Part shown: one piece after another, positions 12,515-24,278 of the stretch
Layout: each line of letters starts with the position of its first letter
Position numbering within the stretch: the first letter of the stretch is position 1
NCBI GenBank assembly: GCA_003517675.1
Contig: DPAC01000095.1
Location: forward strand, 1,159-25,634
Source: Porphyromonadaceae bacterium
Lineage (GTDB): Bacteria > Bacteroidota > Bacteroidia > Bacteroidales > Dysgonomonadaceae
DNA: 24,476 nt
Direction of reading: 5' to 3'
Notes under the pieces: generated by a model
What the model was told of the DNA's origin: nothing
What the model saw: only the letters and a program-made list of their open reading frames with translations
Databases searched by the model: none
Program-made: the position numbers and the translations under genes

Positions 12515-13819
12515 TTAAGAGAGGCGGAATAGGGCTTTTTTAAAGAGGTTGAAGTCGTTTGGAAGGGGCATGGCCTGTTTTTTGCCCTGCATGAATGCTG
12601 CCAATCCATCTGGAATTTCCAATGCCTTGCCGGTGCACTCCTCCACTGTCTCTTTGAACTTGGCCGGGTGGGCGGTGGCCAGGAAGATACCCGTTTCACC
12701 CGGTTGCAGCCCCTCCTTCAGGGCCAGGTAACCACAGGCACCATGTGGGTCGAGCAGGTATCCTGTACGTTGTTTGGTTTCCCGGATGGTCTCTTGAATC
12801 TCCTCGTCGTTGTAACGATAGGCTGAGATATCGCCAGTGATGGCGCGATGGTCGTGTCCGTAGAGATCCAGGATGCGGTCGAAGTTGCTGGGGGCACCCA
12901 CATCCATGGCGTTGGCGATTGTTTGTACCGACGATCTGGGTGAATATTTACCTGAAAGCAGATATTCGCGAAACACATCGTTACGGTTGTTAGCGGCGAT
13001 GAATCGCTCCACGGGCAGTCCCATCCGCTTAGCAAAGAGGCCGGCGGTGAGGTTGCCCAGGTTGCCGCTGGGAACAGAGATCACAGTCCGTGCATCGGGA
13101 TGGTGTTGCTTCAGTTGTGCCCAGGCGTGGAAGTAGTAGAACGACTGTGGCAGGAACCTGGCGACGTTGATGGAGTTGGCGGAAGTGAGGCACAGCTTGA
13201 GGTTGAGCTCCTCGTCCATGAAAGCGTTCTTCACCAGCGCCTGGCAGTCGTCGAAGGTGCCGTCCACCTCCAGTGCTGTGATGTTCTGCCCCAGTGTGGT
13301 GAATTGAGCCTCCTGGATGTCGCTCACCTTTCCGGAGGGATAGAGCACGAACACACGGATTCCCTCCACACCCAGAAAACCGTTGGCCACAGCGCTGCCG
13401 GTATCGCCGGAGGTGGCTACCAGCACCTTCACCTCGTCCTGCTGTTGTTTCTTCACAAAGTAAGAAAGCATGCGCGCCATAAACCGGGCACCCACATCCT
13501 TGAACGCGAAGGTGGGGCCGTGGAAGAGCTCCAGCACCCAGATGTTCTCCTCCACCTGGCGGAGTGGAATTTCGAAGCTGAGGGTGTCGGCAACAATGGC
13601 ATCCAGTTCCTGTTGAGGGATATCTTCGCCGAAGAAAGAGCGAGCAACGGTCTGGGCGATCGCTGTCAGGTTCATTTCCTCTATTTCGTTAAAAAATGAG
13701 GAGGGTAGTTGTCCAATGGTTTCAGGCATATACAACCCTCTGTCGGGAGCCAGTCCTTTCACCACTGCTTCCCGCAGTGAAACGAGGGGGGCCTTTTTAT
13801 TGGTGCTGTAATAGTGCAT
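12515..13819 (-). CDS. thrC: Threonine synthase
   Basis: 434 residues from the ATG at 13819 (MHYYSTNKKAPLVSLREAV), the normal N-terminus of bacterial threonine synthase. A further in-frame extension to 14059 overlaps the upstream gene and codes for His/Arg/Pro-rich sequence, so it was rejected. The enzyme is PLP-dependent and converts O-phosphohomoserine to threonine. The PLP lysine is in HGPTFAFKDVGARFM (about residue 107), and the phosphate-binding region VATSGDTGSAVANGF is clear, as are SANSINVARFLPQSFYYFHA and VPSGNLGN. It is the last gene of the thrA-apgM-thrC operon, 29 bases after the apgM stop. Confidence 0.97.
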   Translation of the reverse strand: MHYYSTNKKAPLVSLREAVVKGLAPDRGLYMPETIGQLPSSFFNEIEEMNLTAIAQTVARSFFGEDIPQQELDAIVADTLSFEIPLRQVEENIWVLELFHGPTFAFKDVGARFMARMLSYFVKKQQQDEVKVLVATSGDTGSAVANGFLGVEGIRVFVLYPSGKVSDIQEAQFTTLGQNITALEVDGTFDDCQALVKNAFMDEELNLKLCLTSANSINVARFLPQSFYYFHAWAQLKQHHPDARTVISVPSGNLGNLTAGLFAKRMGLPVERFIAANNRNDVFREYLLSGKYSPRSSVQTIANAMDVGAPSNFDRILDLYGHDHRAITGDISAYRYNDEEIQETIRETKQRTGYLLDPHGACGYLALKEGLQPGETGIFLATAHPAKFKETVEECTGKALEIPDGLAAFMQGKKQAMPLPNDFNLFKKALFRLS

Positions 13820-13848: not shown

Positions 13849-15063
13849 TTATTTTCCGAATAATATTTTCATCAACTGGTCGCCCTGGAGCAGGCCGTAG
13901 CTGCCTTCGCGGGCTGCAAACTCGTCGTACGTCTGTACATAGTCGGCTTGTATATCCCTGTGCCAGATCAGAAAGGGAATGGCATCGCGGGTATGCGTAC
14001 GGATGGCGCAGGGGGTGGGGTGATCGGGCAGGATGGCGATGGTGACCCGCTCGTTCCATTTCATTGTCTCCTCGTAAATTGTTTTGACGATCCGTGCATC
14101 GAGATATTCGATTGTTTTTACTTTCAGTGCCACATCACCCTCATGGCCCGCCTCGTCACTCGCCTCCACATGAAGGTAAACGAAGTCCCTGTCTTTCAAT
14201 GCCTTGAGGGCAGCCGCTGCTTTTCCCTCGTAATTGGTGTCATAGAGTCCCGTGGCACCCTCCACCATGATCACCTCAAGCCCTGCATAGACCCCGATGC
14301 CGCGGATCAGGTCCACTGCCGAGATCACCGCACCGCTGCGGATGGGGTAGAGTTCGCTCAGGGGTCGCATCTGCGGGCGGTAGCCGGGCGACCAGGGCCA
14401 GATGCTGTTGGCCGGATGCTTTCCCTGGGCGATTCTTTTTCTGTTCACCGGATGATCGCGTAGCAGCTCCTGTGATCTCAGGATCAGTCTGTTCAGCGCG
14501 TCAGCGGTAGCTTCGGCATCAGGATGGGCAGCTTTGACCAGGTGGGGACGGAAGGGATGTTTTGGGATGTCGTGCGGTGGGGTGCACGTGAGCCGCTTGT
14601 CACCTCCCTGCATCTTCAGCAGGTGCCGATAGGAGACCCCGGGGTAGAAGTGGAAGATCTCATCACCCAGCTTTCCGTTCAGGAAGTGAATCAGCTCCTC
14701 GGCCTCCTCGCTGCTGATGTGTCCGGCAGAGTGGTTAACCAGTTGTTCGCCATTGATGCAAACGAGGTTGCAGCGCATGGCCAGCTCACCGGGAAGGATT
14801 TCCACCCCCATGCTGGCTGCTTCCAGCACACCTCTTCCCTCAAAGACGGAAGGGAGGTCGTAACCCAGCACCGAGAGGTTGGCAATCTCACTCCCGGGTG
14901 CAAATCCGTCGGGGACGGTGTTCAGCAGCCCGTTTCTTCCCATTCGGGCAAGCAGGTCCATATAGGGGGTCTCTGCTGCCTGCAGCGCTGTTTTGTTTCC
15001 CAGGGCAGGAATTGGCTCGTCGGCCATTCCATCGCCCAGAATGATGATGGTTTTATGCGTCAT
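13849..15063 (-). CDS. apgM: ApgM-type cofactor-independent phosphoglycerate mutase family; probable homoserine kinase of the thr operon
   Basis: 404 residues from ATG 15063 (MTHKTIIILGDGMADEP); a 14-residue extension to 15105 lies inside thrA and was rejected. The sequence is an archaeal-type iPGM/alkaline-phosphatase superfamily protein: metal-binding GDGMAD at the start, the APGSEIANLSVLGYD block (Ser nucleophile region), VEASDEAGHEGD and AILPDHPTPCAIRTHTRDAIPF with DH and H ligands. It lies between thrA and thrC, one base from the thrA stop codon, where a homoserine kinase (thrB) is expected, and no GHMP kinase is present in the window. From memory, fitness studies in Bacteroides assigned homoserine kinase function to such a paralogue; I cannot verify that here. 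Family is sure, activity inferred. Confidence 0.85.
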   Translation of the reverse strand: MTHKTIIILGDGMADEPIPALGNKTALQAAETPYMDLLARMGRNGLLNTVPDGFAPGSEIANLSVLGYDLPSVFEGRGVLEAASMGVEILPGELAMRCNLVCINGEQLVNHSAGHISSEEAEELIHFLNGKLGDEIFHFYPGVSYRHLLKMQGGDKRLTCTPPHDIPKHPFRPHLVKAAHPDAEATADALNRLILRSQELLRDHPVNRKRIAQGKHPANSIWPWSPGYRPQMRPLSELYPIRSGAVISAVDLIRGIGVYAGLEVIMVEGATGLYDTNYEGKAAAALKALKDRDFVYLHVEASDEAGHEGDVALKVKTIEYLDARIVKTIYEETMKWNERVTIAILPDHPTPCAIRTHTRDAIPFLIWHRDIQADYVQTYDEFAAREGSYGLLQGDQLMKILFGK

Positions 15064-15064
15064 T

Positions 15065-17509
15065 TTATCGGATATTGGCAATAGAGATGATATCGGCAAA
15101 GACACCGGCAGCTGTTACGCTGGCACCGGCACCGTAACCCTTGATCACCATCGGGTACTCGTTGTAGCGTTCGGTGGTGATCATGATGATGTTGTTGCTC
15201 CCCTCCAGGTCGTAAAAAGGATGTCCCTTCTCCACCTCGCGGAGCCCCACTTCGCACCTGCCGTTGTCGTACGAAGCTACGAAGCGCAGTCTCTTCTCCT
15301 CCCTGGCCAGCTTCCGGCGGCGTTCCTCAAACGAGGCATCCAGTTCAGGGATGGTCTGCCAGAACGTTTCCAGGCTTCCCTCGAAATATTGTTGTGGGAC
15401 AAACAGTTTTTTTACCACGTCCGACTGTTCGATGCGTGCGCCCGCCTCACGTGAGAGGATCACCAGCTTGCGTGTGACATCCTGTCCGCTCAGGTCGATA
15501 CGCGGGTCGGGCTCGGCATATTGAGCCTCCACTGCCAGGCGTATAGCCTTGCTGAAAGGAATCTCCTCACTGAGCGTGTTGAAGATGAAGTTAAGCGTGC
15601 CGGAGAGCACCGCCTCCAGCTTCACGATCTTGTCGCCCGAATTGGTGAGCGAGTTCATGGTGTTGATGATGGGCAGTCCGGCCCCCACGTTGGTTTCAAA
15701 GAGAAACTTGACTCCGCTCTTGCGGGCTGTTTCTTTCAGGTGGAGATAGTTGTCATAGGCCGATGAGGCGGCGATCTTGTTGGCGGTGACCACCGAGACG
15801 TTCCTTGCCATCAGCTCACCGTAGAGCTCGGCGATCTGTGGACTGGCGGTGCAGTCCACAAATACGGAGTTGAAGATATTCATCTTCAGGATCTCATCCC
15901 GGATCAGTTCCGGGGAGCTCTTCATCCCGTGTTCCATCAGGTTGTCGAAGTATCCCTCCAGTGGAATGCCGTCGCGCGAGAAGAGCGCTTTTCGCCCGTT
16001 GGCGATGCCAACGATGTTGATCCGCAGCTTGTTTTGCTCTTTCAGTGTCTGTTGCTGCTGTCTGATCTGCTCCATCAGGCGGCTGCCCACGGTACCGGTA
16101 CCGGTGATGAAGAGGTTCAGCTCCTGGTAGGGGGAGAGGAAGAAAGAGTCGTGGATCACGTTGAGCGACTTTTTAAGGTCTGTCCGCGAGATGACGCAGG
16201 AGATGTTTGTTTCGCCGGCACCCTGTGCGAGGGCGATCACGCTGATTCCATTTCTCCCCAGGGCGCCGAAAAACTTACCGGCGATGCCCGGCACATGCTT
16301 CATGTTCTGTCCCACGATGGCGATGGTGGCCAGGTCATATTCTACCAGGATTTCGTTGATGCTGCCCATGGCGATCTCCGGCTCAAACTCCTTGTTCAGT
16401 ACCTTCTGTGCCGTGGGTGCATCCTGCGTACGAACACCGATGGAGGTGCTGTTCTCCGAGGAGGCCTGAGAGACGATGAAGACGCTGATGCCGTTGTCGG
16501 CCAGTGCGGAGAAGATCCGTTTGTTCACCCCGATCACGCCCACCATGCCGAGGCCCTGGATGGTGATCAGGGCAGTGTCGTTGATGGAGGAGATCCCTTT
16601 GATGATCTGTCCGTTGGGATTGGGAGCGATGTTACGGATCAGCGTTCCTTCACTTTCCGGACGGAAGGTGTTCTTCACCCGGATGGGGATGTTCTTGTGA
16701 TATACCGGGAAGATGGTAGGGGGATAGATCACCTTTGCTCCGAAGTTGGAGAGCTCAATTGCTTCGGTAAAGGAGAGCTCCTCAATCACATAGGCCGAGT
16801 TGATGATCCTGGGATCGGCAGTCATGAAGCCATCCACGTCGGTCCAGATCTCCAGCACCGAAGCATTCATGGCGGCAGCGATGATGGCGGCAGTGTAATC
16901 CGAGCCGCCGCGGCCCAGGTTCGTGATATCACCATTCTCGCTGCTTGAGGCGATGAAGCCGGGGACGATAGCTACCTGAGGGGGCGGCATCTCGGAGAAG
17001 GTCTTTCGTATCAGCTGGTTGCAGCGAGCCAGGTCGGGCAGGTGATTTCGGAACTGCTGGCTGGTCTTAATAAAGAGTGTGGGGTCGTAGAGCTCTGCTC
17101 CTTCTATCACCCGGCTGATGATCAGTGAGGAGAGGCGTTCTCCATAGCTGACGATCTTATCGGAGGTCTTTTGAGAGAGGTCGCCAATCAGGAAGACCCC
17201 CCGCAGGATGTTACGCAGCTCCTCGAAGAGTTGCTCTGCTTTTTGGGCGACCTCTTCACGCTGGCCTGAGGGGGCAACCATCTTTTCAATGATCTCCCTG
17301 TGACGCACGATGATCTCCTCGAGGAGGCTCTTGTATCCGGCGTTGTTGTTCAGCGCAAAGTCGGCAGCCAGCAGCAGGCGGTCGGTTACACCACCCAGGG
17401 CGGAGACTACTACGATAACCGGCTCTTTTTCCTTTTCTATGATCTGCTTGACCAGCTGTAAGCTGTCGGGACTACCCACGGAGGTTCCTCCGAATTTCAT
17501 CACTTTCAT
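15065..17509 (-). CDS. thrA: Bifunctional aspartokinase / homoserine dehydrogenase
   Basis: 814 residues from ATG 17509 (MKVMKFGGTSVG); a longer reading to 17599 would run back through the candidate attenuator terminator and was rejected. The N-terminal aspartokinase domain has KFGGTSVG (5-12), LIGDLSQKTSDKIVSYGERLS and GRGGSDYTAAIIAAA. Tandem ACT domains follow (around 320-460, ALITIQGLGMVGVIGV and LATIAIVGQNMKHVPG), the usual site of threonine feedback inhibition. The homoserine dehydrogenase domain starts near 466 with ITGTGTVGSRL and continues with VVTANKIAAS, FLFETNVGAGLPII and LSGTLNFIFN. It catalyses the first and third steps from aspartate to threonine. It is first in the operon and is preceded by a candidate Thr-rich attenuator. 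Confidence 0.97.
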   Translation of the reverse strand: MKVMKFGGTSVGSPDSLQLVKQIIEKEKEPVIVVVSALGGVTDRLLLAADFALNNNAGYKSLLEEIIVRHREIIEKMVAPSGQREEVAQKAEQLFEELRNILRGVFLIGDLSQKTSDKIVSYGERLSSLIISRVIEGAELYDPTLFIKTSQQFRNHLPDLARCNQLIRKTFSEMPPPQVAIVPGFIASSSENGDITNLGRGGSDYTAAIIAAAMNASVLEIWTDVDGFMTADPRIINSAYVIEELSFTEAIELSNFGAKVIYPPTIFPVYHKNIPIRVKNTFRPESEGTLIRNIAPNPNGQIIKGISSINDTALITIQGLGMVGVIGVNKRIFSALADNGISVFIVSQASSENSTSIGVRTQDAPTAQKVLNKEFEPEIAMGSINEILVEYDLATIAIVGQNMKHVPGIAGKFFGALGRNGISVIALAQGAGETNISCVISRTDLKKSLNVIHDSFFLSPYQELNLFITGTGTVGSRLMEQIRQQQQTLKEQNKLRINIVGIANGRKALFSRDGIPLEGYFDNLMEHGMKSSPELIRDEILKMNIFNSVFVDCTASPQIAELYGELMARNVSVVTANKIAASSAYDNYLHLKETARKSGVKFLFETNVGAGLPIINTMNSLTNSGDKIVKLEAVLSGTLNFIFNTLSEEIPFSKAIRLAVEAQYAEPDPRIDLSGQDVTRKLVILSREAGARIEQSDVVKKLFVPQQYFEGSLETFWQTIPELDASFEERRRKLAREEKRLRFVASYDNGRCEVGLREVEKGHPFYDLEGSNNIIMITTERYNEYPMVIKGYGAGASVTAAGVFADIISIANIR

Positions 17510-17529
17510 CGTGTATGAATATATGTTAC

Positions 17530-17543
17530 CGTTCAGAAACGGG
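17530..17543 (-). promoter_or_regulatory. Small hairpin just upstream of thrA
   Basis: Minus-strand CCGTTTCTGAACGG, a 5-bp stem with a 4-nt loop, ends about 20 nt before the thrA start codon. It may modulate translation initiation; significance uncertain. Confidence 0.25.
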
Positions 17544-17547
17544 GTTG

Positions 17548-17591
17548 AAAAAAAAATTGTGAATTGTAAACTGCAAACCGGTCGATTTGCA
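17548..17591 (-). terminator. Candidate attenuator terminator in the thr leader
   Basis: Minus-strand TGCAAATCGACCGGTTTGCA (17591-17572) can form an 8-bp stem (one G-U pair) with a GACC tetraloop. A run of nine T (17556-17548) follows after 15 nt. The T-run is further away than in a textbook intrinsic terminator, which lowers confidence, but position between leader peptide and thrA fits an attenuator. Confidence 0.5.
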
Positions 17592-17594
17592 AAT

Positions 17595-17650
17595 GGCAAG
17601 CAGCGTTGCCGTGCGGTTGTGAAGCATTACATAACCCCCCAAGGGGTCAT
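17595..17650 (-). promoter_or_regulatory. Upstream attenuator hairpins of the thr leader
   Basis: Two further minus-strand stems: ATGACCCCTTGGGGGGTTAT (17650-17631), 8 bp with a TTGG loop (one G-U pair), overlapping the last leader-peptide codons; and GGCAACGCTGCTTGCC (17610-17595), 5 bp with a 6-nt loop. A ribosome stalled at the threonine codons would disturb the first stem, the arrangement expected of transcription attenuation. Confidence 0.5.
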
Positions 17651-17692
17651 GGTCATTGAAGTGGTGAAGTATGTTGAATACAGTCTCTGCAT
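17627..17692 (-). CDS. Thr-rich leader peptide of the threonine operon (thrL-like)
   Basis: A 21-codon frame from ATG 17692 to TAA 17627. Five of 21 residues are threonine (positions 7, 10, 11, 14, 16: TYFTTSMTMTP), encoded by ACA, ACC, ACT, ACC and ACC. It lies about 15-20 nt after the predicted transcription start and about 120 nt ahead of thrA, followed by hairpins and a T-run. The layout is like the E. coli thrL attenuator, with no recognisable sequence identity. Threonine enrichment at this exact place is unlikely by chance, but translation is inferred. Confidence 0.6.
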   Translation of the reverse strand: MQRLYSTYFTTSMTMTPWGVM

Positions 17693-17713
17693 TGCGAACA
17701 TATTAATTTGATG

Positions 17714-17721
17714 CAAAGGTA
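17714..17721 (-). promoter_or_regulatory. -7 promoter element of the thr operon
   Basis: Minus-strand TACCTTTG (17721-17714) is an exact TAnnTTTG match. Initiation about 5-7 nt further on places the start near 17708, immediately before the leader peptide ATG at 17692. No clear -33 element is seen. Confidence 0.55.
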
Positions 17722-23893: not shown

Positions 23894-24254
23894 GCAGCAG
23901 GTCGGTTTGTCGCTGCGACACCCTTGTCGCAGAGGAAAGTCCGGGCAACGCAGAGCGCCATACTTCCTAACGGGAAGCTGTTCGTGAGGGCAGATGAGCG
24001 TAACAGAAAAAAACCGCCGCGGCCTTGTGCCGGGGTAAGGGTGAAAAGGTGGGGTAAGAGCCCACCGGGTGCCGTGGCAACACGGCATGCCGTACGCGTT
24101 ATGGGTTGCAAGGCCATGTATACCGGATAACAAGGGTTGCTCGCCCGATGCCGGGGGGTAGGCCGCTAGAGGCTGGTGGTGACACCTGTCCCCAGATAAA
24201 TGACAGACACCCCGTCTTGAACGGGGCACAGAACCCGGCTTACAGACCAGCTGC
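23894..24254 (+). ncRNA. rnpB: RNase P RNA (M1-type catalytic RNA)
   Basis: About 360 nt. Universally conserved core elements are present: gaggaaagtccgggc (23931-23945) near the 5' end and acagaacccggcttacag (24227-24244) near the 3' end, which pair to form P4. The outermost stem is seen as gcagcaggtc (5' end) with gaccagctgc (3' end). The architecture is type A. It processes the 5' ends of tRNA precursors together with RnpA. A run of seven T (24255-24261) directly after the closing stem acts as terminator. End positions are good to a few bases. Confidence 0.95.
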
Positions 24255-24278
24255 TTTTTTTATGTAACTGACCCAGGA

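Follow-up and report, generated by a model that had tools for sequence, protein, structure and literature searches.

A conserved threonine-rich leader ORF and hairpin upstream of thrA: a candidate leader-peptide regulator of the thr operon in Bacteroidales

The thrL leader of E. coli (Thr_leader, RF00506) carries threonine and isoleucine codons, while the tnaC and Salmonella leaders exemplify Rho-dependent leader regulation; attenuation was reportedly surveyed comparatively by Lopatovskaya in 2010. Leader-peptide attenuation is not a new idea in the phylum to which the sequence analysed here belongs, as the Bacteroid-trp element (RF01692; PMC2864571) and Flavobacterium psychrophilum attest. 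For the latter (same phylum, but a different order), a main text that mentions neither threonine nor tryptophan presents 'strong clues' for attenuation by leader peptides ahead of amino-acid operons (PMC9723704). Ryan et al. 2020, in whose main text thrA and BT_2403 are absent, described short ORFs within long B. thetaiotaomicron 5′ UTRs as 'reminiscent of leader peptides' (PMC7366714). In the mainly open literature that we searched we found no described thr attenuator of Bacteroidetes, though an earlier prediction may exist.

The window (the whole stretch of DNA that was analysed, 24,476 nucleotides) derives from an incomplete genome (1.85 Mb, 59.55% complete), whose thrA is closest, among named organisms, to that of Proteiniphilum (92, 86 and 85% identity over the best segments). 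It encodes thrA, an apgM-family gene and thrC, which plausibly account for the greater part of the pathway leading from aspartate to threonine as judged from profile matches, and the intergenic elements listed below precede thrA:
17714–17721, minus strand: Bacteroidota −7 promoter box TACCTTTG, fitting TANNTTTG.
17627–17692, minus strand: leader ORF of 21 codons, MQRLYSTYFTTSMTMTPWGVM followed by a stop (ATG at 17692, TAA at 17629–17627), from ORF reading and relatives.
17630–17651, minus strand: hairpin S1 (CAUGACCCCU/GGGGGUUAUG) over the last codons, its 5′ arm containing the final Thr codon.
17615–17623, minus strand: spacer 3′ of the stop, reading UUCACAACC in the window and often UUCACAUCC among relatives (alignment).
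17595–17610, minus strand: hairpin S2 (GGCAA/UUGCC), from a per-sequence stem search.
17572–17591, minus strand: hairpin S3 of 8 bp (UGCAAAUC/GGUUUGCA), from the consensus fold and double changes.
17548–17571, minus strand: G-poor linker and T9 run (T9 at 17556–17548, beginning 70 nt after the leader stop).
17529–17542, minus strand: hairpin S4 (CCGUU/AACGG), between the U-run and the thrA start.
15065–17509, minus strand: thrA, bifunctional aspartate kinase/homoserine dehydrogenase I (ATG at 17509; NCBIfam NF006959, 1001.8 bits, cut-off 726).
13849–15063, minus strand (predicted start): apgM-family gene, the proposed homoserine kinase (TIGR02535, 544.5 bits, cut-off 446.3).
12515–13819, minus strand (predicted start; frame open from 14059): thrC, threonine synthase (TIGR00260, 312.5 bits, cut-off 167.1).

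The apgM-family gene also exceeds the cut-offs of NF003242 and TIGR00306 (phosphoglycerate mutase models). The original prediction had described the −7 box, the 21-codon ORF with five threonines (residues 7, 10, 11, 14 and 16), three stems and the T9 run, all of which lie where it placed them, and its caveat that 15 nt separate the last stem (S3) from T9 is equally accurate. A second in-frame ATG stands at 17701, and relatives L003, L006, L012 and L032 carry the inner ATG only. Elsewhere in the window, a bacterial class A RNase P RNA was found on the plus strand (23894–24258, 252 bits).

The locus resembles E. coli thrL in its short Thr-rich leader ORF just 3′ of a promoter, in the thrA-kinase-thrC operon and in the hairpins before thrA. 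Unlike thrL, the Bacteroidales leader is enriched in Met (with Ile at 0.5-fold) and has no conserved hairpin directly followed by U's. The Thr_leader model matched none of 61 family genomes over the gathering cut-off and gave no match over the cut-off in the window; weaker matches occurred in 22 of the 61 genomes, and none of those listed fell at the leader place defined by our covariance model R2. Over the cut-off, the same model matched one of 14 control genomes (E. coli being among the four listed). The suggestion that the leader arose independently of that of E. coli is consistent with these results. No known riboswitch or T-box was matched by Rfam at the leader, and no Rfam family matches it convincingly.

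Bacteroid-trp offers a further comparison: it is a leader-peptide element present in this bacterial family, and its short ORF is rich in the amino acid under regulation (WW/WWW). Its model exceeded the cut-off in 26 of the 61 family genomes, with no match in the window or in seven loci with thr leaders. All nine elements scored (L178–L186) combine WW/WWW leader peptides with terminators and stand upstream of a gene that we take to be trpB-like. In Bacteroid-trp a strong hairpin is directly followed by U's, whereas no such hairpin is conserved in the thr leader; these elements make a good matched control for attenuation tests in Bacteroidota.

We assembled thrA upstream regions from the 61 family genomes (30 loci returned) and 80 named contigs; the resulting 111 loci yielded 109 upstream regions (L030, in which the thrA start was not located, and L039, without upstream DNA, were left out) and 104 after dropping identical 300-nt ends. 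A leader was called where an ATG-started ORF carried an in-frame Thr codon within the 5′ arm of a CCC/GGGG hairpin and stopped close by. By this definition 66 of the 104 distinct Bacteroidales regions carry a leader (with Ala for Thr in L023). Fifty rounds of dinucleotide shuffling gave 0.2 on average and never more than 1, and for the other ORFs of these loci 8 of 474 upstream regions qualified. The definition was framed after viewing the sequences and the rows are mutually related (L019 is a near-duplicate of L034 among the 66), so the weight rests on the shuffles rather than on the count.

Grouped by genus (as named in the records), the leader was called in Bacteroides (13/13), Parabacteroides (4/4), Phocaeicola (4/5) and Proteiniphilum (3/3). 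By the same definition it was absent from 38 of the 104 regions, including those of Alistipes (0/3), Prevotella (0/3), Tannerella (0/4), Dysgonamonadaceae (0/4), Dysgonomonas (0/2) and Paludibacter (0/2). In 32 of the 61 family genomes the covariance model R2 found one match apiece (E ~1e-5 or better); 23 of these 32 had supplied model sequences and 9 were independent. By coordinates all 32 lie just upstream of thrA, and there was no other strong match. All 12 genomes of the window's genus (its own included) have a leader match; the start and Thr codons, whose conservation had been named as a check on the original prediction, are kept in these close relatives. Four weaker R2 matches (E 0.0096–0.046) were set aside as coding or CRISPR-like repeat sequence by eye. 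A second model (R1, Bacteroides-type) recovered 10 of 149 genomes across the order at E <= 0.05, one of them strongly; as it finds so few matches, it was not used to judge the spread of the leader. Overall, the weak matches of both models that were read (L153–L156 and L143–L152, minus L146) were dismissed by eye as coding, repeat or chance sequence, with the exception of L143, which lies before thrA. The single-sequence fold of the window leader is weakly distinguished from background (z = −2.0; 5 of 200 shuffles equally stable), and it is conservation that raises the observation above chance, indeed far above it on these sequence comparisons.

Codons were counted in 65 leaders (one near-duplicate removed). 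Threonine accounts for 271 of 1129 codons (24%, against a background of 5.1%; 4.7-fold enriched), with a median of 5 per leader (range 2–10), and falls to 5.8% and 3.0% in the +1 and +2 frames. The four triplets are all in use (ACA 114, ACC 69, ACT 66, ACG 22), which shows that the amino acid is conserved and not one triplet. Methionine is enriched 6.6-fold (156 of 1129). An ATG immediately precedes the S1 Thr codon in 57 of the 65 leaders; after excluding it together with alternative starts, Met still makes up 81 of 1030 codons (7.9% vs 2.1%) and Thr 268 (26%). Variable columns in three small aligned leader sets were distributed over the first, second and third codon positions as 3/1/7, 4/2/5 and 3/5/7, so that third positions are the most variable, in small numbers. 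The leader ORF is conserved as a protein in these alignments, and, in keeping with an attenuator, it appears as a short ORF enriched in codons for the regulated amino acid.

Within the peptide, the constant element is the Thr codon in the S1 arm together with further Thr codons 5′ of it. The C-terminus is variable: translation would end within the loop of S1, in the S1 3′ arm or just beyond, and the endings (MTPWGV, MTPRG, MTLRG, MTP) vary with hairpin loop and stop, while the Thr codons persist. One could suppose that the product of the short ORF is itself a functional or arrest peptide, or that the RNA is a trans-acting small RNA, with no relation to threonine sensing, and a Tyr-rich N-terminal part does recur (Tyr 2.9-fold in leaders). 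We consider this very unlikely, given that the C-terminal residues vary where the Thr codons stay and that strong model matches occur before thrA only. The leader is very probably a leader-peptide sensor serving the thr operon, as far as comparative sequence evidence can tell. As to the methionines, ThrA is the sole full-length match per genome within the genus (the second match is partial and aspartokinase-like); homoserine for methionine is thus probably also supplied through ThrA, which makes joint sensing of threonine and methionine plausible. Constraints on the RNA may also account for the Met codons, as the ATG before the S1 Thr codon sits in the S1 stem. Two variants were seen: L111, a Bacteroidales MAG, has a near-pure Thr run (MMFWQLHITTTTTTTPAGV) in a leader ~176 nt upstream of thrA, and the Parabacteroides-type leaders L041, L043, L044, L046, L049 and L051 read YYTWAL or close to it, with few Thr codons and one Trp before S1 in each.

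The promoter motif TANNTTTG lies at most 60 nt upstream of 54 of the 65 leaders (shuffles: mean 2.7, maximum 11) and between leader and thrA in three of the 65 (shuffled mean 5.7). A transcription start downstream of the leader start had been named as a point against the original prediction; at the level of the motif, the promoter seems to stand 5′ of the leader, with no excess downstream of it or before the structural gene, an arrangement proper to an attenuator.

Hairpins S1 and S3 were assessed in 25 Proteiniphilum/Petrimonas-type sequences, where 89.5% of cells are paired and 29 cells show double changes, against 9.4 in shuffled alignments (0 of 500 as high). Nineteen of these are in S3, in which 7 of 8 pairs have changes on both sides and 80.2% of cells are paired, and ten are in the outermost pair of S1. 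Apart from that pair S1 is nearly invariant (96.8% of cells paired) and hence contributes little covariation. S2 also takes the form AAGCAG/CUGCUU or AAACAA/UUGUUU among relatives. Among 22 Bacteroides-type sequences 88.2% of cells are paired, with 21 double-change cells against 8.4 shuffled (0 of 500 as high); further pair types were not above shuffles in this set (361 of 500 as high). Covarying stems had been proposed as a check on the original prediction, and the stems do keep pairing through double changes in relatives. As in attenuators, the presumed regulatory codons adjoin or sit inside the first conserved hairpin.

What follows S1 differs in the Bacteroides-type leaders, where another hairpin has an invariant UACG in its loop and some sequences have a third stem, in which only 69.8% of cells are paired. 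CUACG at the loop of the post-S1 hairpin is invariant in 22 of 22 sequences, with a partly variable stem, and is possibly a contact for protein or RNA; L089, whose loop differs, was folded and excluded from the counted 22-sequence alignment. The leader ORF and S1 are therefore common to the lineages and the downstream part is lineage-specific.

As S1 is a near-perfect dyad, it might instead be a DNA operator for a repressor, with the ORF as a by-product. This we regard as extremely improbable: one S1 pair is G·U throughout both alignments (25 of 25 and 22 of 22), which breaks the DNA symmetry and preserves RNA pairing and the ATG codon, and threonine is conserved at the codon level.

In an attenuator as originally predicted, the last stem with T9 would act as an intrinsic terminator, and it is here that the comparison departs from the prediction. 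A hairpin directly followed by a U-run was found in 4 of 66 leaders at dG <= −8 and in 10 at dG <= −5, rising to 8 and 18 when a gap of up to 3 nt was allowed. With the same scan, terminators were recovered in 9 of 9 scored Bacteroid-trp elements (dG −15.4 to −20.8), a selected control in that the Rfam model itself covers one arm of the terminator hairpin (10 loci were returned, of which L177, near a contig end, was left unscored). Convergent gene ends gave 10 of 14 (7 pairs, 400 kb, one same-genus relative), and a smaller control of gene ends 0 of 10. Whether or not the gap was allowed, the 66 leaders gave no conserved canonical terminator, and this feature was rejected; an intrinsic terminator ahead of the structural gene is an attribute of attenuators that most thr leaders lack.

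Nor did a 2:3 antiterminator appear in the consensus folds, whether region 1 was hidden or a ribosome was placed at the stop. These results bear on a classical E. coli-type attenuator, in which S3 (or S2 or counterparts) with the U-run would form the intrinsic terminator and the S1 3′ arm would pair with the S3 5′ arm as antiterminator. By eye, the S1 3′ arm GGGGUUAU resembles the S3 3′ arm GGUU(AU), as regions 2 and 4 should, and short GGUU/AACC complementarity is present in the alignment; the U-run is conserved, and in some relatives (e.g., L014, L016, L046, L068, L050, L100) a hairpin does run straight into U's. We nevertheless think the classical arrangement unlikely, considering how few leaders have such a terminator beside Bacteroid-trp and that, with region 1 hidden, the consensus fold retains S3 at probability 1.00 and forms no 2:3 helix. 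Two other pairings were tried and discarded: that between the conserved spacer and the 3′ arm of S1 (probability 0.51), by eye broken in Petrimonas-type sequences, and that of the U-run with an A-rich sequence near S4, absent from the consensus fold. Of the thrL-like attenuation originally envisaged, the putatively translated Thr leader upstream of the thr operon thus stands and the terminator is not borne out.

The U-run itself is retained. Of the 66 leaders, 43 contain a T>=6 run (8.8 on average and at most 17 in mononucleotide shuffles). Among 23 Proteiniphilum/Petrimonas-type leaders of standard length, 14 have a T>=5 run beginning at +60 to +78 from the leader stop (shuffles: mean 1.3, maximum 6), and the remaining 9 have no such run at this near-fixed place. 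The 12 nt preceding the near-fixed run contain 3% G. The thr leaders resemble Rho-dependent leaders (tnaC, Salmonella) in having a leader ORF, no conserved intrinsic terminator and an unpaired G-poor stretch. They differ from them in that the ribosome-position logic is here deduced only and that a rut site is not evident, the UTR being only mildly richer in C than in G (20.5% vs 17.2%).

In L004/L037, L005, L007, L010, L006 and L013, S1 lies 194–380 nt from thrA, the intervening sequence being unrelated and partly repetitive, and the leader and S1 are retained (the interval of L037 contains repeated GACCGAAGGGAGTCAAAT-like units). Leader translation might alternatively act on translation or mRNA stability, by altering folding near the thrA start (S4 and a weak start-codon hairpin) or by protecting the message. 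Of 31 Proteiniphilum/Petrimonas-type UTRs, 21 have a CCGUU/AACGG-like stem (S4) as their best, as such control would have it. UUCAU before the thrA start and AUGAA at it (window 17505–17525, minus strand) can also pair over the start codon, with a probability of 0.74–0.85 in the consensus fold of 21 Proteiniphilum/Petrimonas-type sequences. This pairing has 5 bp, however, with a single C-G, and is by eye absent from the Bacteroides-type sequences viewed; the loci with 194–380 nt between S1 and thrA argue against a direct link with the ribosome site of thrA. Translational or stability control therefore strikes us as improbable, and transcriptional control is favoured because ORF and S1 are kept at such distances and the U-run is kept too.

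Taken as a whole, the element would be a leader-peptide regulator that acts in cis and whose output is transcriptional and non-canonical, a reading whose chances we see as evenly balanced. The comparisons show an ORF conserved at the protein level, Thr/Met enrichment, S1 and S3, set positions of promoter motif and U-run, and placement ahead of thrA alone. On this model of transcriptional control, transcription would start just 3′ of the −7 box, ahead of the leader ORF, and a ribosome would translate the short Thr/Met-rich ORF, either stalling on its Thr/Met codons or standing at the stop in or just after S1. Its position would set whether S1 and the following RNA fold, and the folding state would determine the passage of RNA polymerase into thrA. 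With charged tRNA-Thr plentiful the leader would be completed and transcription would mostly end near the U-run, ~70 nt past the stop; with charged tRNA-Thr scarce it would continue into thrA. Stalling, the direction of the response and premature termination as the output are the parts of this scheme that we infer.

As no canonical intrinsic terminator is conserved, termination would probably be factor-assisted, most plausibly by Rho, a factor described as active in the mRNA leaders of bacteria and essential to B. thetaiotaomicron (PMC13269538). The fully specified version, in which one leader reads both Thr and Met codons and Rho-dependent termination occurs at the near-fixed U-run behind a G-free linker, without an intrinsic terminator, is put forward tentatively and is probably not correct in every part.

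Ribosome-mediated attenuation requires that transcription and translation run in step. Bacteroidota ribosomes use few Shine-Dalgarno sites, and to our knowledge transcription-translation coupling has been little tested in this phylum. A compact conserved leader in named Bacteroides, Parabacteroides and Proteiniphilum isolates makes the question of coupling testable. The leader is a candidate Rfam family, and its codon content suggests joint sensing of threonine and methionine. Were its output Rho-dependent, it would constitute a leader-peptide switch with a non-textbook stop signal, beside the textbook-like trp attenuators of the same family. For common gut bacteria it also provides a candidate control element of threonine synthesis.
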